Assembly: GCF_002368415.1 (NCBI RefSeq)
Contig: NZ_AP018290.1
Location: 7,245,717-7,309,716 of the forward strand
Origin: Calothrix sp. NIES-4105
GTDB taxonomy: Bacteria > Cyanobacteriota > Cyanobacteriia > Cyanobacteriales > Nostocaceae
DNA length: 64,000 nt
Direction: 5' to 3'
The first letter of the stretch is position 1; each line of letters starts with the position of its first letter. The notes beneath the pieces were generated by a model that saw only the letters and a list, made by a program, of their open reading frames with translations, did not search any database and was not told the DNA's origin. Below, piece by piece: positions 51,172 to 61,247 of this stretch. The position numbers and the translations under genes are program-made.

Positions 51172-51319
51172 TTTTCTACCTTTATTTATGACTTCTACAA
51201 GAAACGGCGCCCTTTAAATAAGCAGCACTCAATATTCGCTCTATCTATTTTTACATACATCCATCATTCGTTAGAAGAAAAGTAACTTTTGGCTCACTAA
51301 TATAACCACTAATATAACT

Positions 51320-51512
51320 ATGTGTGTCAGGAGAAAGAAGTTGAGAAAGCTTAGAGTATTTATTAGCTTGCTAGTTGCTTGTGTAATTGCTGTGTCATAT
51401 TACACACCCTCTAATGCGGCAAGAGATAATAGAAATTTGCCGACATCGGTTACTAGCATCGGTCGTATTGAACAAGTTGCGGCATTTACGGGGCCAATGC
51501 CAACGGGAGTTA
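51320..51512 (+). pseudogene. 5' fragment of a secreted royal-jelly/gluconolactonase-like protein
   Basis: Begins at ATG 51320 with a signal peptide (LRVFISLLVACVIAVSYYTP) and mature start (VTSIGRIEQVAAFTGPMPTG). At 51500 the element starts; the frame then continues briefly into it (VKLQHK) and stops. The rest of the protein is at 59730-60857. Joining the two 13-bp copies in frame gives PMPTGVTVTRSGRIFVNFPR, the expected sequence of a major royal jelly/yellow-like six-bladed propeller. Confidence 0.8.
51500..51512. repeat. attL core
   Basis: CCAACGGGAGTTA, left copy. On the element side it is followed by AGTTACAAC. Combined with the right junction, the reconstructed attP reads TTAACTCC-AACG-GGAGTTAA, a perfect 8-bp inverted repeat around a 4-bp centre. 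The chromosomal side differs (AATGCC), as expected for an integrated element. Confidence 0.8.
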
Positions 51513-51590
51513 AGTTACAACACAAATAATCGCCTGTATACTGTGCTATGCTTACCCCTAACAATTTATCCACTAGGGCAATACTAGGAA

Positions 51591-52859
51591 ATGTACAGTA
51601 AACAACAATCTAGCAGTAAGCAAGCTGATGTCAGGATAGGTACCGATAGAGGCATACTACGATTACAGTTTAGTAAACGTGTATCAGAGCAGTTCTATCA
51701 CAAACCTCAAAAATACTTTGGTCTAGGTGGTAGGGTAGACTCACCTGATAACCGTAGTTGGGCTGAGGGTATAGCTAGAGATATTCAAACCGATATTGAT
51801 TATAGGAATGGTGAGAACTTTGATATCACCCTTCAGAAGTACTTGGAGATTAGACCGAGTAAGGTGGTTGAGTTACCCGGTAGTAAACAGGTACCTACAC
51901 TAGGTGAGTTATGGGGTGAGTTTGTGCAATGGAAGGTGGATAATAAGCAGATAGGCGAAGTTACGAAGATAGGTTCATACGACAATAACTACACTTATTT
52001 ACTAAATAACTTCTCAGCAAAACAGCTAACTGAAGCGCTATCTCATGATTTAATAAATGATTTGACCGCTAGGACTGCTAACCATGTATCGGTCAAAAAA
52101 TTACTTAGGTTGCTATCAGCAATGAGTGTTAGAGCTATTAGTCAAGGTAAGCTACATCATAACTACTTTTTTGACGTTGCTAAAAACTATAACCCACCTA
52201 AAAAAAGCAACCAGTTAGCAGAAGAAGAAGATTATAGGGCGTATAGCATAGAAGAGAGAGATATTATAATTAAAGCTTTTTATGCATCGACTAAGCGTAG
52301 CCATAGACATATAGCTGAGTTGGTAGAGTTTCTGTTCCTAACTGGTATGCGACCTAGCGAAGCGTTCGCGCTTAGGTGGAAACATATTGATTTTGATAGA
52401 GGTTGGATAAAGATACAAACCAATTACAGTTCACTCACAAGGAAGGAAACAGGCAAGACTAAGACCAATGTAGTAAGGATATTTAGGTTAAAAGGGCAAG
52501 TCAAATTACTTGATTTACTCAATAGGATTAAAGGTGATGAAAAAGCAGATGATTTAATTTTTACGACAGTTACGGGTAAAAGATACTCTTTAGGTAGAAT
52601 GTTCGATGCATGGACTGCAAGCGATAGCTCAAGGGATGGCAAGGAGTACTATTATTTGGGTGTAGTTAAGCAATTAGCGGAGCAAGGGTTAATTAGTTGC
52701 TACCTAACACCCTATTCGACACGTCACACCTTTATATCAATACAGGCTAATGCTGGAACCGACCTAGGATTATTAGCTGACACTTGTGGTAACTCGGTCA
52801 ATATAATAATGAAGCACTACTTACAGCCTGATAAAGAGCGCATGTTATCAAATATTTAA
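51591..52859 (+). CDS. int: Tyrosine recombinase / integrase
   Basis: A 422-residue integrase reading away from attL, 78 bases inside. The SAM-like N-terminal domain is about residues 90-200. In the catalytic domain, Arg I is in LTGMRPSEAFALRW (R254), box II is PYSTRHTFISIQAN (R378, H379), and the nucleophile is the Tyr in IMKHYLQP (Y410). The first His of the usual H-x-x-R is a Tyr (Y-S-T-R). That substitution is tolerated in several phage and plasmid integrases. It should carry out integration and excision between the 13-bp cores. Confidence 0.9.
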   Translation: MYSKQQSSSKQADVRIGTDRGILRLQFSKRVSEQFYHKPQKYFGLGGRVDSPDNRSWAEGIARDIQTDIDYRNGENFDITLQKYLEIRPSKVVELPGSKQVPTLGELWGEFVQWKVDNKQIGEVTKIGSYDNNYTYLLNNFSAKQLTEALSHDLINDLTARTANHVSVKKLLRLLSAMSVRAISQGKLHHNYFFDVAKNYNPPKKSNQLAEEEDYRAYSIEERDIIIKAFYASTKRSHRHIAELVEFLFLTGMRPSEAFALRWKHIDFDRGWIKIQTNYSSLTRKETGKTKTNVVRIFRLKGQVKLLDLLNRIKGDEKADDLIFTTVTGKRYSLGRMFDAWTASDSSRDGKEYYYLGVVKQLAEQGLISCYLTPYSTRHTFISIQANAGTDLGLLADTCGNSVNIIMKHYLQPDKERMLSNI

Positions 52860-52920
52860 ATAAAGGTTAGGCATTAGGTGATAAATACCTATACGCCTCT
52901 ATGCATTAGTTATGGAAAAA

Positions 52921-52940
52921 TGTTTAACAAATTGTTTAAC
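52921..52940. promoter_or_regulatory. Element-specific GTTTAAC site 1
   Basis: TGTTTAACAAATTGTTTAAC, two direct GTTTAAC units 12 bases apart, preceded by TTATGGAAAAA. It lies between the 3' end of int and the 3' end of the convergent RHH gene. Candidate operator or replication iteron. Confidence 0.6.
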
Positions 52941-53027
52941 TTTTTTACTACTACTAACTCTACCTAAGCATATAAGAGTCAATAGTTAGCTCAAGTTGAT
53001 TGCTACACAGTTATACAAAGTTGGGGT

Positions 53028-53228
53028 CTAAGTCGATGGAGGCGTTGAACTGTTAACTGTTGAGGTGTTACCGTTCTTTAATTCACGCTCAATCTCCTGT
53101 TCTACTGCGCGAGTCAACAAAAATGCAGCTAGGTTAGATGGCGGTCTACCTTGCTCTGTAGCCTTATCGACTATCCATTGATAAATTTTTGGTAGTACCA
53201 CGACGTTGAACCGCTGTTTACTAGGCAT
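53028..53228 (-). CDS. Ribbon-helix-helix (CopG-like) regulator
   Basis: A 66-residue protein (RFNVVVLPKIYQWIVDKATE, QGRPPSNLAAFLLTRAVEQE). The pattern of beta-strand, helix, SNLAAFLL helix is that of CopG-type repressors. It faces int and may bind the GTTTAAC sites. It is the only minus-strand gene of the element. Confidence 0.65.
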   Translation of the reverse strand: MPSKQRFNVVVLPKIYQWIVDKATEQGRPPSNLAAFLLTRAVEQEIERELKNGNTSTVNSSTPPST

Positions 53229-53339
53229 TTCGTTGATTTAACACACTTCACACTAATACTACACCAAACGTTCCGATAGTTGACAAGAGAACGTTATACG
53301 TGTTAAGAACATCAATAACGTTTAGAACGTTCCTAGTGT

Positions 53340-53639
53340 ATGACAGAGGTACAAGTACAAAACAACGGGGTCAAACCCCTAACAAAGCAGAAGCGTAGCC
53401 GCGTGCTACCCTCTCTATCTTTGACTTCTAACGCTAGTGAGATGAGTGATGCGACTTACACCTGTAAGGTTGATAACTCACCCAGTAGTTGGGATGCACT
53501 ACCCATTAACGCTACCTTCTCCCTATCGGCTGATGGTTCGTACCCAAAGTTAAAGATACATAAATCAAAAGCTTGCGACTTACGTACAGGTGAGTCAATC
53601 GGTGTGGGGGGTGGCAGATGCTATCGAGTGTTCTTCTAA
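53340..53639 (+). CDS. Hypothetical protein of the element
   Basis: A 99-residue frame (MTEVQVQNNGVKPLTKQKRS, later PINATFSLSADGSYPKLKIH). Lysine- and serine-rich with two Cys near the C terminus. Function not recognised. Lies just before GTTTAAC site 2. Confidence 0.45.
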   Translation: MTEVQVQNNGVKPLTKQKRSRVLPSLSLTSNASEMSDATYTCKVDNSPSSWDALPINATFSLSADGSYPKLKIHKSKACDLRTGESIGVGGGRCYRVFF

Positions 53640-53756
53640 AACAATAAGTATAGGAGTAATTAGCTACTACCCCTACACCTAATCAAATCAATTAAATCAC
53701 GTGCAATTGTGGCAGAAAGTGAAGCATAAAGCAACCTATATCAGTTGAGTAAATAA

Positions 53757-53775
53757 GTTAAACAAATTGTTTAAC
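53757..53775. promoter_or_regulatory. Element-specific GTTTAAC site 2
   Basis: GTTAAACAAATTGTTTAAC, here as an inverted repeat (GTTAAAC / GTTTAAC with 5-base centre). Located 52 bases upstream of the small gene at 53827, so a promoter-operator position is likely. Confidence 0.6.
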
Positions 53776-53826
53776 TATTTTCGACAAGTAATAAACAGGC
53801 TAATACTAATAGTTAGGTGAGTAGAA

Positions 53827-54033
53827 ATGACTGAATTAAATCAACAACTTTATCAAGTTAGTTTAAACGTGTTGACTGAGGCTGGTGTACCCGAACCATT
53901 AGCTGATGCAGCTAGCAGAATCGTAGCTACTGATGACCCCAATCAACCTAATCTAGGTAGGAGTGATGCTGATATCCAAGTATGTCAAACAGTAGCTTAT
54001 ATCTATAACGCAGTACAGAGGCTAGCCGATTAA
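53827..54033 (+). CDS. Hypothetical small protein of the element
   Basis: A 68-residue acidic helical protein (LYQVSLNVLTEAGVPEPLAD, AASRIVATDD). Its TAA overlaps the next ATG (TAATG), so it is translationally coupled to the 46-residue membrane protein. Confidence 0.5.
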   Translation: MTELNQQLYQVSLNVLTEAGVPEPLADAASRIVATDDPNQPNLGRSDADIQVCQTVAYIYNAVQRLAD

Positions 54034-54173
54034 TGAAGGATGCTACCCCATTATTCCTAGGGGTAGCTCTAATCGCTACCCTATCTTTTTACCAGTGGCA
54101 ACACAACAACGAATTAAGTAAATGTAGAGCCGAATATCAGGGTTTTAAGGATGGTGTAATGTATGGAAAATAA
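54033..54173 (+). CDS. Small single-helix membrane protein of the element
   Basis: A 46-residue frame (MKDATPLFLGVALIATLSFY followed by a polar tail). It starts at the TAATG overlap and ends 11 bases inside the P-loop ATPase gene. Its single membrane helix and coupling to both neighbours suggest a component of the same complex. Confidence 0.5.
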   Translation: MKDATPLFLGVALIATLSFYQWQHNNELSKCRAEYQGFKDGVMYGK

Positions 54174-55293
54174 GAACTTAAATAGAGTCAATTTTGTAGA
54201 GATGCCCTTACCATCACTACAACAGTTTGATAGGTTTTTAGGTTGGATGGTAGGTAGGGTTTTATTTAGTTCGTGGATGTTTACCCTATGGTCAATTAAA
54301 AGTACAGCGAGGCTAATAGTTAACATCACAGAGCAGTGCGAACGCGCTACACATCAGCTTTTAAAGGTTTACGAACAGTTACCCCACATGGGTACAATAG
54401 CACCACAAACTATAGATACCACCGCTACTCTACTAACAGGTGAACCGGAGAACATAGTCACTAATTTGACTGATGCAATTGAGGGTAAGCACCTAATAAT
54501 AGTTGGTGATACTGGTACGGGCAAAAGCATGATTGCTCAATACTTAGCCTATGCCGTAGGTGGTAACGTTAAAGTCTATGACCCCGATGCTTCGCCTGAT
54601 GAATGGGTGGGTTTAAATGTAGTTGGTAGGAGGGGCAACTTTGAGGCTATTAATGATGAGATGAATAATGATTTAGCTGAGTTAGAGAGGCGTATTGATT
54701 TAAGGGGTGAGTTAGGTGATAAGGCATTAGCTGGATTAGATACTGTGTTAATAGCCGAGGAGTTCCCACTACTAAGAGATTCGGTTGAGGTAGCCTCTGA
54801 TTGGTTCCTTAAACATGGGCGTAGGGGTAGGAAACCTAAACAATTTATCATCGCATTATCTCAGGATGATACTGTTAAGAGCTTTGGCATCGAAGGCGAG
54901 GGTGGTGTTAGGAAGGGCTTTAAGATGCTTAGGTTAGGTAAGTTCGGGGTTACGCACGCCAAACAGTTGAAGGATGCCCAGATTGAGCAGTGGTTAAAGT
55001 CGGGTAGGTACAGGTGTATGTTGGATGATTACCCTTGTCAGCTACCAGATTTAAGTAGTTTTAAAATGTTTACACCAAGGTTAGCCACCCCTACCCCTAA
55101 CCAGGCTGCAACCACGCCAGAACCGGAGTTACCAACGGTGGATGATACCCTGAAAAAAGCCGCCAAAGCCTGTCTAGAAGCGGGTATGAGTGAATCTAAG
55201 GTGATTAAGGAGGTTCTAGGTTATCAGGGTGCAAATTATCAACAGGGTAAGGAGGTACTCTTGACTATCATTAAAAAGCACAACAAACCTTAA
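54163..55293 (+). CDS. P-loop ATPase with N-terminal membrane segment (FtsK/HerA-like)
   Basis: A 376-residue protein. A hydrophobic stretch near residues 20-50 (FLGWMVGRVLFSSWMFTLWS) precedes the Walker A GDTGTGKS (about 114-122), Walker B DTVLIAEEFPLL, and FIIALSQDDTVKSF. The arrangement fits membrane-associated DNA-pumping ATPases of the FtsK/HerA/TraG type. It might support DNA transfer or segregation of the excised element. No relaxase gene is seen. Confidence 0.7.
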   Translation: MENKNLNRVNFVEMPLPSLQQFDRFLGWMVGRVLFSSWMFTLWSIKSTARLIVNITEQCERATHQLLKVYEQLPHMGTIAPQTIDTTATLLTGEPENIVTNLTDAIEGKHLIIVGDTGTGKSMIAQYLAYAVGGNVKVYDPDASPDEWVGLNVVGRRGNFEAINDEMNNDLAELERRIDLRGELGDKALAGLDTVLIAEEFPLLRDSVEVASDWFLKHGRRGRKPKQFIIALSQDDTVKSFGIEGEGGVRKGFKMLRLGKFGVTHAKQLKDAQIEQWLKSGRYRCMLDDYPCQLPDLSSFKMFTPRLATPTPNQAATTPEPELPTVDDTLKKAAKACLEAGMSESKVIKEVLGYQGANYQQGKEVLLTIIKKHNKP

Positions 55294-55783
55294 GGATTAT
55301 CCATACGAAAAATACACCCGTAGCACTCGCGTAGCACTTCGTAAACTTTATAGGTTTTAGTAATCGCGGGTAGCTACCAGAGGGGTGTAGGTAGTAACGT
55401 TGAACTAACCGCTAGCGCTACCTGAAGTAAAGTTGATTTTTCGCTAACGCATTTTTATCATGTCGGCAATAGCATCTAGGGGGTTTATATAATACTAAAA
55501 TGTTTAACAAAATGTTTAAGTTTTTTGCCAATTAGATATAGCTGCAAGCATCTATGATTTATACTCAATAAAGCTTGTGATGTATTTGAGGTTATAGTTT
55601 TGGGTTAGTTTCAGGACTCATTGATTAAACCGTAGAGATGAGTTTAGGCTCCGATAGAAATTTTTGCGTGGCTAGCAATCAACTGTATAAAAAAGCGGTT
55701 GATTTCACAGAAAAAAAAAAGTACCGTAGTACCAATACAGGTACCACGGCTTAGTTTTCTTAAAACAAGGATTTTATTTTAGT
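55294..55783. promoter_or_regulatory. Regulatory region upstream of the primase gene, with GTTTAAC site 3
   Basis: About 490 bases without a gene. TGTTTAACAAAATGTTTAAG lies at 55501-55520. An inverted GTACC / GGTACC arrangement (GTACCGTAGTACC and GGTACCACGG near 55720-55750) lies just upstream of the primase start. A likely replication-control or promoter region. Confidence 0.5.
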
Positions 55784-58552
55784 ATGAACACGACGCTTTT
55801 AAAACAACCTCACGGAACAAATTTAGATTTAACTACTCGCTACAGTAGCATAACCCTCTTACCATTAAATAGTACTGATTTATACGATTTGACTGTAAAA
55901 CGCGGTCTAGACCCCAACTGGGTGGTAGCGAACGTTAGACGGATAAGTAAAGCTGATGCTAGTGAGCTATTAGGCTATCCAGCACCATCGGGCGGATTAT
56001 TGATAATGAGTGCTGACGGTAGCTTCCAGTTTAAGCCAGATGAACCCTGGATTAATGAGGAGACGGGGAAGGTAGTCAAGTACTTAACGATGAGCGCTAA
56101 GAAGGGTGATTACGGTGCTATATTGCCAATCAATCCAGTTAAGGAGGATGACTACTGGAGTGATGACGCGAAGCTTTTAGCGGCTTGTAGGATTGTAAAC
56201 GGACGTAAGCGCATAGGCATTACTGAAGGTGGTTTTAAGGCTCAACGTGGATGCTCTATCGGTATACCTTACATCGGTATATTAGGTGTCACTATGGGCA
56301 TGACTGGTAGTAAAAATGGTACCGTATTACGTTATTTACTTGAGTCAATTAAGCGTCCAATTAGGTTGGGTATAGACGTAGTTATTACTTTTGATGCCGA
56401 TTTAGCTAAGAATGAGAATGTACAAAGGGCACTACGTAAGCTAGCTAACGAAATGTACAAAGACATTGATGCTATTAAGAGTGACTCTAGAGTATACTTA
56501 GTCAAATTACCTCTTGGTGGACTTACAGGTATGGACGAAAGTATTAAGGGGATGGATGATTTCATCAAGGCTCATGGTGCTGATGAGTTCTACAATTTAT
56601 TTGATAATGCCGAGTTAATAGAGAGGCTAGAGACTAACTTAGAAAAGACGACTAGCTTAAGTCAGATAAAAAAACCAATACCTTTAGGGAAGGCGTTAGC
56701 TGAGAAATACAAGGGTAATTACCTCTACCATGCACAACAACAAATGTGGAGGAAGTACAACGGTAAAATATGGGAGATGATATCAGGTGATGTGTTTGAG
56801 TCTGAGGTATTTAACGACTTGGATAAAATAACTAATCTGGAGACTGAAGCACAAATTAACGGTGCTAAGAGGGCACTCAAAAACATATTGATTGAGAGGG
56901 AATGGGTACAGCTAAACCAACAGGAGAATATAGCTTTTAATAATGGTATCTACAATTTAGTTAAACAAAATCTTAAAGATTTTGAACCAGGTGATAGACT
57001 ATTAAGCCATTTGCCTTATGACTACGAAAAAGTAGAAATTAAAGGTAGCGTAATTGATGCTTTACGTGAATACTGTCCAGAGCATTATGAGACTTACAAG
57101 AGGATTAAAAACGGCAATGAGCGAGGAATATGGGAACTGTTAGCTATCATTAACGCTATCATTACAGGCTTATTTCAAGAGAACCAAAAGTTCCTTTATA
57201 TAGAAGGTGAACCAGCTACAGGTAAAGGGACTTACGTTGATATGTTAATGGAAATAGTAGGTAGAGATAACAAGTACTCAACAGAGGTTAGAAATCTAGG
57301 TAATTTAAATACACGTGCTGAGTTGATTGATAAAAAACTACTAATCTGTCCAGACGAACGCAAAAAAGTACTTGTTGATGACGTACTTAAAATAGTTGCA
57401 TCGGATTATATAGAATGCAAGCGTTTATATAGCCAGCCATTTAGCTTACCATTTAAGGGGGCACTCGTAGTGGTAGCTAATAATTATATATTTAATGGTG
57501 ATGCAACAGGTATCGATAGACGGATAAAAAAAGTTAACTTCCTTAACCCTGTACCAGCTAGTCAGAGGTCAGAAAATTATAAGCAATTACTCAAGACTGA
57601 AATACCTAAATTAGTAAGCATAGCGCTGCAATTAGACCCCAGTGAGGTGGATGCATTCATTAAAGCTGATGATAATGAAGTGCCAAATAAATTTAGCGTA
57701 GAAGGTTGGTTAGAGCTAATTAAAACTGATAGCGTAGCTAAATTTATTGATGAGCGAGTCAGGAGAGTTGAGGGTGCTAAGTTTAAAACTCGTATAGGTA
57801 GGGTTACATCAAAGACAACTAGCTTTGATACCACTAAAATCGTAGAGGCTTTTGCTGATTTCTGTCAGGTAAATGATTTGTATCCAGGTAAGTTCGATGA
57901 GGTTGCTGATAGGTTCATTGAAATCACTGCTGGTTATTTAGGTTGGGATGTCATTAAGGATAGAGACAGTCAAGGTAACTTCATTGGCGGCGAGGTTAGG
58001 TTACGTGATAACCACATCGATTACGATGTCCCTACCCATAGTGAGTTATTTGAAATAGGTTTGTTGAATAAGTCTACACAGTCTACACAGTCCATACAGG
58101 ATAAGGATTACAGGTCTACACAAGGGTCTACACAAGGTGTACATGATGTAGACCTTACACCTACACAACAGTATGTAGATGAACCTATAGAACCTACACT
58201 TACAAAGCAGCCTAATGTAGACCTCAAGTCTACACAGTGTAGACCTAATGTAGACCCTAATGTAGACCTCAAACCCTTACCAGATAAGGATAATGTAGAC
58301 TATGTAGACCTAAATGAGTCAAACCTAAATAATTCAATAAAGGGGGGTGCTAGCTCAATAAGTAGTAAGGGGCTAAATGTTGGCTCAATAGTCAAGTGTA
58401 AGGATAAGCGCTATCCAGAGATATATAGAGTCGTTGGTGGTGGTAATGGCAAGTGGCAGTGCGAACCGATTAGCCTAACTCGTAAGCTTACCAATGCCGA
58501 CTCTCAAACATTCACTACTAACCAATTGGAACTCTACGAGATGCCCTTCTGA
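55784..58552 (+). CDS. DUF3854-D5-type primase-helicase
   Basis: A 922-residue replication protein. The first 260 residues match DUF3854, a Toprim-like primase region (RKRIGITEGGFKAQRGCSIG, then DVVITFDADLAKNENVQRAL). The middle is a D5/P4-type SF3 helicase with Walker A GEPATGKGTYVDM (about 474-486) and Walker B KLLICPDE. The C-terminal third has a low-complexity STQ/VDL-rich linker and a final small domain. Typical of plasmid and phage-satellite replication proteins; it would replicate the excised circle. Confidence 0.85.
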   Translation: MNTTLLKQPHGTNLDLTTRYSSITLLPLNSTDLYDLTVKRGLDPNWVVANVRRISKADASELLGYPAPSGGLLIMSADGSFQFKPDEPWINEETGKVVKYLTMSAKKGDYGAILPINPVKEDDYWSDDAKLLAACRIVNGRKRIGITEGGFKAQRGCSIGIPYIGILGVTMGMTGSKNGTVLRYLLESIKRPIRLGIDVVITFDADLAKNENVQRALRKLANEMYKDIDAIKSDSRVYLVKLPLGGLTGMDESIKGMDDFIKAHGADEFYNLFDNAELIERLETNLEKTTSLSQIKKPIPLGKALAEKYKGNYLYHAQQQMWRKYNGKIWEMISGDVFESEVFNDLDKITNLETEAQINGAKRALKNILIEREWVQLNQQENIAFNNGIYNLVKQNLKDFEPGDRLLSHLPYDYEKVEIKGSVIDALREYCPEHYETYKRIKNGNERGIWELLAIINAIITGLFQENQKFLYIEGEPATGKGTYVDMLMEIVGRDNKYSTEVRNLGNLNTRAELIDKKLLICPDERKKVLVDDVLKIVASDYIECKRLYSQPFSLPFKGALVVVANNYIFNGDATGIDRRIKKVNFLNPVPASQRSENYKQLLKTEIPKLVSIALQLDPSEVDAFIKADDNEVPNKFSVEGWLELIKTDSVAKFIDERVRRVEGAKFKTRIGRVTSKTTSFDTTKIVEAFADFCQVNDLYPGKFDEVADRFIEITAGYLGWDVIKDRDSQGNFIGGEVRLRDNHIDYDVPTHSELFEIGLLNKSTQSTQSIQDKDYRSTQGSTQGVHDVDLTPTQQYVDEPIEPTLTKQPNVDLKSTQCRPNVDPNVDLKPLPDKDNVDYVDLNESNLNNSIKGGASSISSKGLNVGSIVKCKDKRYPEIYRVVGGGNGKWQCEPISLTRKLTNADSQTFTTNQLELYEMPF
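58070..58310. repeat. Dense TGTAGAC / GTCTACA repeats within the primase gene
   Basis: At least a dozen copies of GTCTACACA or its reverse complement TGTAGACC crowd into 240 bases, in both orientations. They encode the STQ/NVDL linker. The density on both strands is more than the protein needs and resembles replication iterons inside a replication gene, as in phage lambda O. Confidence 0.55.
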
Positions 58553-58823
58553 GGATAAGGCGCCGTCTATTAAGGCTAGGTTAACTATTTAGTGTTGAGT
58601 AGGTTAAGTCAATTAGCTGGTGGTTGTACACTCATCACGCTGTACAACCACTACACGGCTCAATGAAGCTAAGTTAATCAAGGGTAGATGCGTACTACTA
58701 ATGGTTGCTGTAAGTGTGTACCTAAAAATCACTAAATGTAGCTGAGAGTACCTTGCATCCCACTATACACTACCTCTATTTATCTGTTACACTTAATTCA
58801 TTGTATATGTATAGGGTACAACA

Positions 58824-59099
58824 ATGACTGAGATAGCTAGGAAACGAGGTAGACCACAAGGCATTCCGAGAGAGGGTGGTTACGGTACTGGGGTAAAAAC
58901 TAAGGTTGTGAGAGTCCCTGAAGCGGTGGCTGATAACATCAAGGAGATTCTAAGTAGCTTTGAACAAATTAAGGTGTTAGTCGATAGTTGGGGTGAGGCT
59001 ATCAATGAGGCTACTACTAAATCAAGTGTAGGTAAGCCATCGCCACGATATGACCAGGCTATAAAGCTATTGGAGGAGTTAAGGGGCTATTTGGGGTAG
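58824..59099 (+). CDS. Small DNA-binding-like protein of the element
   Basis: A 91-residue basic protein (MTEIARKRGRPQGIPREGGY, then KTKVVRVPEAVADNIKEILS). The AT-hook-like KRGRPQG and the following RHH-like strand and helix suggest a partition or regulatory protein. The family is known from cyanobacterial plasmids; function not established. Confidence 0.55.
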   Translation: MTEIARKRGRPQGIPREGGYGTGVKTKVVRVPEAVADNIKEILSSFEQIKVLVDSWGEAINEATTKSSVGKPSPRYDQAIKLLEELRGYLG

Positions 59100-59716
59100 T
59101 AGGTTGTAGCGTAGTTATAGGGGCATCCCTTGCCCCTACGTGCCACTGTACAGCTAAATATTTGAGTGATTAGCTAGATGTTGTAGGTGTGAGGCTAATT
59201 TAGTTAGCTAGCTAGCGTCTTTATATTGAGTAAAATAGGTGAAAATTAGTTGGTGTAGGGGTTATATGCTTTGGCTTATATTGCTTATGGAAAAATGTTT
59301 AACAAAATGTTTAACAAATATTAGAAAGTAATCTACCCCTAAACACCCCTCGATGGAGCCTGACCCGATTGGAGGCAACCAACCGACCTAAGCTACCTGA
59401 CCTTAAAACAGCACAAAAACTTATCGAATTTACCTTCACCTATCAATTTACACTTAAGTTTGAGCTATAACCCTTACTGTGCATAGCTAGGGGTTATTAT
59501 CTACTAACAGTAACCCCACTACGACCCTAACAATAACCCCTGTTTGTAGGCATTTTCACCTAACAGTAAGTATTTATCACCAAAATAGCGGTATACTAGC
59601 CACATATACCCCACTAGAAGGGCTTAGAACGGTCGGTGAGGGGTCAGTTACTATTTTTGAACTATATTTAATAGGTTAATGGCTGGAAGTGTTGATATAA
59701 CGTAGTTGTGTTAACT
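59100..59716. other. Right-end non-coding region of the element, with GTTTAAC site 4
   Basis: About 617 bases. TGTTTAACAAAATGTTTAAC at 59296-59315 is preceded by TTATGGAAAAA, as at site 1. It also holds several TAACCCC and AGTAACCCC units around 59510-59560. It may include integrase arm-binding sites or an origin. No gene is supported. Confidence 0.5.
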
Positions 59717-59729
59717 CCAACGGGAGTTA
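59717..59729. repeat. attR core
   Basis: CCAACGGGAGTTA, right copy. It is preceded by GTTAACT on the element side, which makes an AACTCC / GGAGTT inverted repeat, and followed on the chromosomal side by the host-gene sequence reading VTVTRSGRIF. Confidence 0.8.
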
Positions 59730-60857
59730 CTGTTACAAGAAGTGGTCGTATCTTTGTCAACTTTCCTCGTTGGGGTGATAAAGTCGATTTTACAGTCGCA
59801 GAAGTAAAAAATGGTCGCGCTGTCGCTTATCCAAATTTAGAAATTAATCGACCTAACACTAGTGACCAATCAAAATCTTTCGTTTCTGTACAAAGTGTTG
59901 TCGTCGATCCGCAAGACCGTCTCTGGATTTTGGATACTGGAAGTATCGAATTTAAGCCTACTTCCTACGGTAGACCTAAGCTCATTGGCGTTGACCTCAA
60001 ACAAAACCGTATCTTCAAAACTATCTTATTTCCTCAAGAAGTCGCTTTACCCACCACATATTTAAACGATATCCGGTTTGACTTGCGACGAGGTACTGGC
60101 GGAATGGCTTTTATTACCGACTCATCCGACCTTGGTCCGAATGGCATTATTGTTGTTGACTTAGCTAGCGGTAAAAGCTGGCGCCGACTTAATGACCATC
60201 CCTCAACTAAAGCCGAACCTAATTTTTTACCTAGCGTTGAAGGCCAACCACTAATGAGCAAACTACCGAATCAACCACCTAGTTATATTACTCCCTTCCC
60301 ACTCAAAGAATACTGATTTGGAATTAACCACAAAGGACACAAAGGGCACAAAGGAAGAAGGAAGATAGGTAATCTTATGCCGGGAAGGGAGTAAAATAGG
60401 CGCCGATGGTATTGCGATTAGTGCAGATGGTAAACGTCTATTTTATTGCCCTCTAGCTAGCCGTAACCTTTACAGTGTCAGCGTTGATGCATTAGCAAAT
60501 CCACAAACAAGTGATGCACAAGTTGCACAAACAGTAGTTTCGCACGGTGATAAAGGTGGAGGTTCTGACGGACTAGAATCAGATTCACAAAACCGAATTT
60601 ATCTAACAAACTACGAGCATAACGCTATTTACCGTCGTAACGAGAACGGAATGATTGAAACTCTTATTCATGACCCGCGCGCGCTTTGGCCTGATACAAT
60701 GTCAGTAGCAAGAGACGGTTATCTTTACTTCATCGCGAATCAATTACATCGTCAACCTAGATACCACCAAGGCAAAGACTTACGTCAAAAACCTTACAGC
60801 CTATTCCGAACTCGAATTAACGCCCAACCAGTTTCTTTAGTAGGAACTTCCAAATAA
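59730..60857 (+). pseudogene. 3' part of the royal-jelly/gluconolactonase-like gene, interrupted by a MITE
   Basis: From 59730 the host frame continues VTVTRSGRIFVNFPRWGDKV and VDPQDRLWILDTG up to PPSYI, where the MITE (60288-60394) begins. After the MITE, the frame reads GADGIAISADGKRLFYCPLA, then GGSDGLESDSQNRIYLTNYE and ends LVGTSK at 60857. The part after the MITE is in a different frame. This C-terminal half completes the six-bladed propeller of the family. Together with the 5' fragment it forms one gene broken twice. Confidence 0.75.
60288..60394. mobile_element. About 107-bp MITE with 13-bp perfect terminal inverted repeats
   Basis: Left end TTACTCCCTTCCC (60288-60300), right end GGGAAGGGAGTAA (60382-60394), exactly inverted. 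TA dinucleotides flank both sides, compatible with IS630/Tc1-type insertion, although the exact target duplication is unclear. The inside has an ACAAAGG repeat also common in cyanobacteria. It interrupts the propeller gene. Confidence 0.7.
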
Positions 60858-60910
60858 AAAACATCAAAACCTTTTCTCCATCCCACAAAAAAACATGTTT
60901 CTGGCGCAAC

Positions 60911-61247
60911 CTAAAATAATCTCAGCACACCAACTTTCTCATCATTATTTAAATTCTCAATATCATCGTAGTGACTTCGTAAAATAGCTTCAATATCCGC
61001 TGTTTTACAGTTACCCCGTCTAATCCAAATAATTTTGGGTGGAAAACCTTGTAGCAAACATAGCTCACTGAAATCTGCATCCTTGGTAACAATTAAAAAA
61101 CCTTCTTGTCGCGCGTATTGCCAAACCTCAGTATCTGGAGCTTTATCAAGACCCAAGCGGTAAAGATGGTTGGAGTCAGTCAGGGTAAAGGTCTTGCAGA
61201 CGATTCACCAAAATAGGGGACAAATGATGGTCGAAAAGTAACTTCAC
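60911..61247 (-). pseudogene. DUF5615 PIN-like toxin, frameshifted
   Basis: GTG start at 61245-61247, overlapping the antitoxin stop (GTGA). It reads VKLLFDHHLSPILVNRLQDL, YPD, then a stop. A tandem duplication of four bases (CTGACTGACT near 61174-61185) shifts the frame. The other frame continues SNHLYRLGLDKAPDTEVWQY, EGFLIVTKDADFSEL to the end at 60911. Removing the extra four bases restores one full toxin of about 110 residues. The N-terminal Asp and the later KDAD are conserved, so only the shift kills it. Confidence 0.75.

Follow-up and report, generated by a model that had tools for sequence, protein, structure and literature searches.

A probable pDU1-related integrative plasmid inserted within an MRJP-family gene of Calothrix sp. 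NIES-4105

The pRL vectors for Nostoc take their replicon (PMC10079941) from plasmid pDU1 of Nostoc sp. PCC 7524 (NC_008440, 6,361 bp). The annotation of pDU1 calls its ATPase only an "ATP-binding protein" and its small proteins hypothetical. Rep proteins of the CyRepA group of plasmids begin with a DUF3854 domain and end in a DEXDc helicase domain (PMC10079941). The nifD-type interruption elements lie between direct repeats inside a protein gene and carry their own site-specific recombinase; a 2016 survey lists 101 elements in 22 ortholog groups, and mentions an ATPase confined to nifD elements (PMC4874684). Tyrosine integrases associated with dusA insert at a conserved part of a coding gene, and their islands are highly diverse apart from the integrase (PMC4482086). 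We analysed 64,000 nucleotides of Calothrix sp. NIES-4105 (NZ_AP018290.1, positions 7,245,717 to 7,309,716 of the forward strand; this whole stretch is the window), within which an 8,217-bp element splits a gene for an apparently secreted propeller protein of the MRJP family. It is best explained as a known kind of element with a new combination of parts, probably a recently integrated, modular, pDU1-related integrative plasmid.

The element shares with pDU1, in like order and orientation, genes for a ribbon-helix-helix (RHH) protein on the minus strand (53% identity), for two small proteins without family, o99 (60%) and o68 (45%), and for an ATPase (59%). Unlike the window element, pDU1 has a different Rep, without match to the window primase-helicase, and a small 183-aa PF00589 protein, and it is recorded as a free plasmid whereas the window copy is integrated. 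No match to the pDU1-type Rep was found within the window element, where a DUF3854/D5_N/DUF5906 protein stands in its place; that protein is like CyRepA in its N-terminal DUF3854, but ends in D5_N and DUF5906 (PMC10079941). The recombinase, the direct repeats and the position inside a protein gene are as in nifD-type elements (PMC4874684), and entry into a conserved coding stretch is as for the dusA integrases, which have other hosts (PMC4482086); the four members of the window's integrase clade with resolved ends lie in four different genes. Table 1 of the survey does not name MRJP, DAHP synthase or moeB, two of its rows reading just hypothetical protein; it lists phospholipase D, which differs from the alpha/beta-hydrolase target of one sibling (PMC4874684). 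No such element is described in the available part of PMC9679502, and no integrated pDU1-type element in the titles and abstract openings searched, a coverage with subscription journals mostly outside it. The features of the insertion are as follows.

51320..51512, plus strand: 5' part of the host MRJP-family gene, with an apparent signal peptide judged by eye
51500..51512, plus strand: attL core CCAACGGGAGTTA, 91 bp upstream of the integrase start
51500..59716: the element, 8,217 bp with one core copy counted, bounded by 13-bp repeats; empty site in congeners G380 and G353
59717..59729, plus strand: attR core CCAACGGGAGTTA, exact second copy of the 13-bp repeat
59730..60290, plus strand: middle part of the host gene; PF03022, 82.5 bits for 59708-60316
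60291..60391: miniature inverted-repeat transposable element (MITE) in the host gene, 101 bp; stop in the joined frame at 60314-60316
60402..60857, plus strand: 3' part of the host gene; PF03022, 54.9 bits; 96% identity to G380

The empty site came from a search of 60 genomes, relatives plus the own genome, for which the N-terminal part of the host protein was joined to its middle part as query. Nine of the 60 matched, among them two of the six congeners (G380 and G353); in the own genome the two split pieces alone matched, and this search found no intact paralogue there. G380 has an uninterrupted 406-codon frame, colinear across the junction with a few small gaps and lacking the MITE; it is 92% identical to one window half over 246 residues and 96% identical to the other over 151. 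The junction of G353 is likewise empty, in a gene that is short of about 730 bp and contains stops. Both empty junctions read CCAACAGGAGTTA, one base different from the window core. The uninterrupted colinear frame in G380, together with the empty junction in G353, gives an insertion signal beyond chance, and confirms that the element was inserted site-specifically into the middle of the host gene. A sequence-only reading of this DNA had described 13-bp end repeats, a length divisible by three, an in-frame join and insertion by a tyrosine integrase, and each of these was borne out: the cores start at 51500 and 59717, their spacing of 8,217 bp is 3 x 2,739, and the host frame is continuous after joining across the core (...GPMPTGVTVTRSGRIFVNFPRWGD...). 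Within the 12.04-Mb assembly CCAACGGGAGTTA has two exact copies, which are the two element ends. That reading's inverted-repeat attP was also recovered, with perfect 8-bp arms and a 4-bp centre AACG; 126 of 20,000 first-order Markov sequences equalled or bettered it, so the palindrome alone is modest evidence that supports the site without proving it. It had named relatives with the same gene boundary and unrelated halves as evidence to the contrary, and the opposite was found, G380 having one continuous gene. The integrase, the direct-repeat cores and the empty site are those of tyrosine-recombinase integrative elements, which would in addition excise to a circle. No tRNA was found in the window, and an Rfam scan of 51300-61000 gave nothing at gathering scores.

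Both downstream host parts belong to PF03022, the MRJP family. Compared with G380, the host halves have dN/dS of 0.09 and 0.07, and when amino-acid changes were polarised by two outgroups, four fell on the window branch and three on the G380 branch, with 22 unresolved; the gene thus appears barely decayed, which fits a recent insertion. A GTG start at the right end of the element (59708-59730) is in frame with the downstream host part; in a sibling element (L049, below) an ATG at the right end is likewise in frame with its moeB-like target. The element may permit translation of the 3' part of its target, in the window with loss of the signal peptide. The MITE has perfect 10-bp terminal inverted repeats with TA on either side, and has CTCCCTTCCC ends. 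Among the 40 matches listed for it in the own genome (of 423 candidates), 13, itself included, are near full length at identities of at least 87%, and three other copies are at 99-100%, which suggests a recently active family.

These data bear on whether the element could be developmentally programmed, of the nifD, hupL or fdxN kind, and be excised in heterocysts or in another cell type to restore the gene. An exact in-frame join and host halves of low dN/dS would suit such an element, and the strain probably fixes nitrogen, given that its own nifD is full length (a nifD match was found in 117 of 118 genomes of the family); interrupted genes without a role in nitrogen fixation have also been reported (PMC4874684). 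The low host dN/dS is, however, equally expected after a recent insertion, and the joined frame terminates at the MITE stop, after residue 259, so that excision alone would not restore the gene. The sequence-only reading had drawn the same argument from a MITE, of which one was found in the host gene. Moreover, the decayed gene of G353 and the lack of a match in four of six congeners indicate that the host gene is dispensable.

The same reading had placed the element in the mechanistic class of the nifD elements, and here the recombinases spoke against it. The comparison set comprised recombinases of 433-434 aa from three interrupted nifD regions, XisC and XisF being left out; in L170 and L171 pieces of NifD lie on both sides of the recombinase, and in L175 a C-terminal piece lies on one side and an N-terminal match on the other. 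They are called XisA-type by position, the name following the survey's account of nifD elements (PMC4874684). The one of the three that was scanned scored below the PF00589 cut-off. Against the window integrase they gave BLAST E values of 0.004-0.006 over only 38-44 residues round the catalytic motif, at most 1.8 bits in phmmer with filters off, and at most 7.2 bits against a profile of the integrase clade. The window integrase thus appears related to these three recombinases at the level of the superfamily only, and falls outside the XisA clade as judged from these comparisons. We regard programmed excision as highly improbable.

The integrative plasmid reading draws its entry mechanism from the integrase and the element ends.

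51591..52859, plus strand: tyrosine integrase, 422 aa; PF00589, 49.6 bits (cut-off 27.1)
59681..59698, plus strand: right-end motif GGCTGnAAGTnnTGATAT, ending 18 bp before the core; common to L051, L053 and L049 (2 mismatches)

Residues R254, K291, R378, H379 and Y410, which we take to be the catalytic residues, are invariant across 26 relatives of the integrase. Relatives at E 1e-40 or better occur in 25 of 388 genomes of the order, the own included. Repeats were searched for in 15 loci and the right-end motif in 15, making 16 distinct loci with the window included; the motif search fixed right ends in four of its 15 and obtained none in the other 11. The four elements with both ends resolved are thus the window and three others, in four different genes. 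The siblings lie in two Nostoc genomes, G330, taken as Nostoc sp. UHCC 0702, and G321, taken as Nostoc sp. CENA543, and range over 1.6-5.8 kb with cores of 14-19 bp. L053 (contig C1 of G330, near 3.95 Mb) is a 5,836-bp element with a 16-bp core, mid-frame in a DAHP synthase gene whose rejoined frame is complete; in Nostoc sp. CENA543 this gene is uninterrupted and colinear through the L053 site, and Nostoc sp. UHCC 0702 retains further DAHP synthase homologues. A second element of G330 (L051; 1,994 bp, 14-bp core) splits a gene for a PGAP1-like alpha/beta-hydrolase close to its 3' end. L049, in G321, measures 1,587 bp and has a core of 19 bp; it lies at the 5' end of a gene for a ThiF-plus-rhodanese protein, read as moeB-like, and has room for little besides the integrase.

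These four elements have a common end architecture. Between the left core and the start of the integrase gene downstream of it there are 91-97 bp in every case, and GGCTGnAAGTnnTGATAT or its 2-mismatch form stands at the right end, ending 10-18 bp before the core; the motif was drawn from the window, L051 and L053, where zero mismatches are so by construction, and L049 (2 mismatches) is independent. TACTAGA occurs within 60 bp upstream of the integrase gene in 13 of 13 relatives, the window having two degenerate ACTAG copies only, and L049, L051 and L053 have TACTAGA-like copies at their right ends too, degenerate in the latter two. We interpret these motifs and repeats as putative core and arm sites of the integrase. 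Core plus arm sites are the organisation typical of lambda-type integrases. A palindromic attP is not general in the clade, the arms being 6 bp in L053 and 3 bp in L051. The repeat of L052 (TTTTAAAATATTT) was rejected as element ends, being of low complexity and giving no rejoined frame. Targeting of tRNA genes was likewise rejected: stretches upstream of the integrase in L056 and L060 resemble a tRNA 3' end by eye, and ARAGORN called none.

The remaining genes of the element, and a repeat found in it, are listed below.

53028..53228, minus strand: RHH protein, 66 aa; PF07878, 27.1 bits (cut-off 26); 53% identity to the pDU1 protein
53340..53639, plus strand: o99, 99 aa, no family; 60% identity to pDU1; beside the ATPase gene in 27 of 28 distinct loci
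53827..54033, plus strand: o68, 68 aa, no family; 45% identity to pDU1; in 18 of 28 loci
54163..55293, plus strand: FtsK/HerA-type ATPase, 376 aa
55784..58552, plus strand: primase-helicase, 922 aa; DUF3854, D5_N and DUF5906, all over the Pfam cut-off
58824..59099, plus strand: o91, 91 aa, no family; relatives in L053 and L115
52921..52939, plus strand: repeat TGTTTAACAAAWTGTTTAA, copy 1, candidate operator or iteron
53756..53774, plus strand: the repeat, copy 2 (2 mismatches)
55501..55519, plus strand: the repeat, copy 3
59296..59314, plus strand: the repeat, copy 4

Relatives of the ATPase at E 1e-8 or better were found in 33 of 376 genomes of the order. We scanned a selection of 31 ATPase loci (the window, L067, two plasmids, and 18 of 20 and 9 of 11 loci from two earlier locus sets), which left 28 after three duplicates were removed. 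Of these, 27 had o99, 18 had o68, nine an integrase of the broad clade, six the primase and four the pDU1-type Rep, absences in these counts being soft, since several of the stretches end at contig ends. All six primase-bearing loci carry a broad-clade integrase, and none of the four with the pDU1-type Rep does. The block genes have dN/dS of 0.07-0.10 with dS above 1, indicating purifying selection. Four copies of TGTTTAACAAAWTGTTTAA occur in the window, every one within the element (shuffles give 0.03), and the repeat is absent, at up to 3 mismatches, from nine other loci including L067 and pDU1. In the 3' part of the primase gene (58069-58312), many GTCTACA/TGTAGAC copies form a 97-nt inverted repeat that is 73% complementary.

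An integrase and a P4-type primase-helicase in about 8 kb are the layout of P4 and of PICIs, and an element of this type might be a phage satellite packaged by a helper phage. PHROGs matches were obtained for both proteins, and distant homologues of each occur among phages (91 records for the integrase, 21 for the primase). The integrase matches extend along most of the protein at identities of up to about 30%, and the primase matches have at most 49% coverage. The integrase query had one short match among viral contigs. The primase, which has the D5_N and DUF5906 domains, scored 62.1 bits against the NCBIfam P4-family primase, whose cut-off is 108.7. The primase also had 39 matches in plasmid records, the best at 33-35%. 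The ATPase matched 10 plasmid records, best pDU1 at 59%, and no phage record; against viral contigs it gave four alignments, of which one had 25% identity and the other three spanned 26 residues. Its model has the motor-domain fold, with TcpA and FtsK ranked above the virus packaging ATPase STIV B204, which appears lower in the Foldseek and VIA lists, and the ATPase by this predicted fold resembles an FtsK/TcpA-type motor; its identity to FtsK and to TcpA of plasmid pCW3 is 14-16%, and conjugation genes were not found in the element. No capsid, portal, terminase or packaging gene was found among the proteins scanned (PHROGs, Pfam). A packaged satellite is in our view improbable. The sequence-only reading had called the element a plasmid-like satellite with its own primase-helicase; the DUF3854/D5_N/DUF5906 protein and the block in pDU1 order bear out the plasmid-like part, and for the satellite part an integrative plasmid is preferred, given the plasmid matches of the ATPase and its lack of phage matches.

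Further copies of the block lie in the same genome (G000). In L067 (contig C1, near 4.1 Mb) the products of o99, o68 and the ATPase gene are 89%, 79% and 83% identical to those of the window, whereas its integrase and primase reach about 30% only. The DNA similarity sets in at the start codon of o99 and stops inside the ATPase gene, in its 3' part, and its sharp borders show that modules were exchanged between the two copies. No ends are claimed for L067, its 11-bp repeat being near chance and the fetched congeners differing across the stretch. A similar stretch, CCCGATTGGAGGCAA, was seen by eye at 59370-59384 and at L067:3924-3936. Contig C7 (L114; 13,693 bp) carries o99, o68 and the ATPase with a 548-aa large serine recombinase. 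Elsewhere, in L115 (contig C1 of G321, near 1.97 Mb), an integrase, o99, the ATPase and a relative of o91 lie between the copies of a 131-bp direct repeat, which are spaced 10,562 bp. Apparent tandem copies at the ends of contig 1 of G342 are explained most simply if that contig is terminally redundant, and contig 10 of G353 has a 15.4-kb repeat.

We propose that a pDU1-related core (RHH protein, o99, o68 and the FtsK/TcpA-type ATPase) was combined with two further modules, a DUF3854/D5/SF3-type primase-helicase for replication in place of the pDU1 Rep, and a tyrosine integrase through which it enters the chromosome. The circular attP would have recombined with 13 matching bp in a conserved part of the MRJP-family gene, no bases being lost. 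The same integrase would excise the circle, presumably with a direction factor, for which the RHH protein or o91 could serve; the circle would replicate through its own primase-helicase and would reach other cells, perhaps with the ATPase as motor.

Several observations weigh against this proposal. Neither a circular attP nor an empty attB with the exact core occurs in the 12.04-Mb assembly, the exact core being present only twice. The nearest sibling elements of the integrase lack the plasmid block, so the combination of this plasmid core with this integrase was not seen elsewhere at high identity, and the RHH protein occurs in 3 of the 28 ATPase loci. Contig C7 has no exact terminal overlap, and its plasmid state is therefore assumed. 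PHROGs, Pfam and NCBIfam scans recognised no excisionase among the element proteins, and their family matches included neither a relaxase nor a conjugation gene. The distant phage homologues of the integrase and primase also slightly lower our confidence in an integrative plasmid. Some of these points would suit an element mobile by origin and recently integrated, but now stuck and unable to excise: the circular form is missing from the assembly, no excisionase was recognised, and the window lacks the exact TACTAGA repeats present upstream of the integrase gene in its 13 relatives. Against this, the integrase retains its clade-invariant residues, both ends match those of the siblings, the block genes are under purifying selection, and the RHH protein or o91 could act as direction factor. 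We consider a stuck element unlikely, and an integrative plasmid, which would still excise, the probable reading.

A wider idea, which we hold only tentatively and think rather doubtful, is that the o99-o68-ATPase block is an unrecognised DNA-moving module of pDU1-type plasmids and chromosomal elements in filamentous cyanobacteria. Anchored in the membrane, its motor would carry circles of double-stranded DNA across the envelope or along the filament. Around it the modules for replication, either a pDU1-type Rep or a DUF3854/D5 primase, would be swapped, and so would those for integration, which may be of the tyrosine or serine type or absent. TraB of Streptomyces moves double-stranded DNA in this way.

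That the pDU1 block also occurs in chromosomes, combined there with different modules for replication and integration, gives it a natural history and a role that can be tested. The integrase clade, with four resolved sites in four genes and a common end architecture, could yield tools for site-specific integration in cyanobacteria. As this case also shows, a gene found split in the genome of a heterocystous cyanobacterium is not necessarily one with programmed excision.

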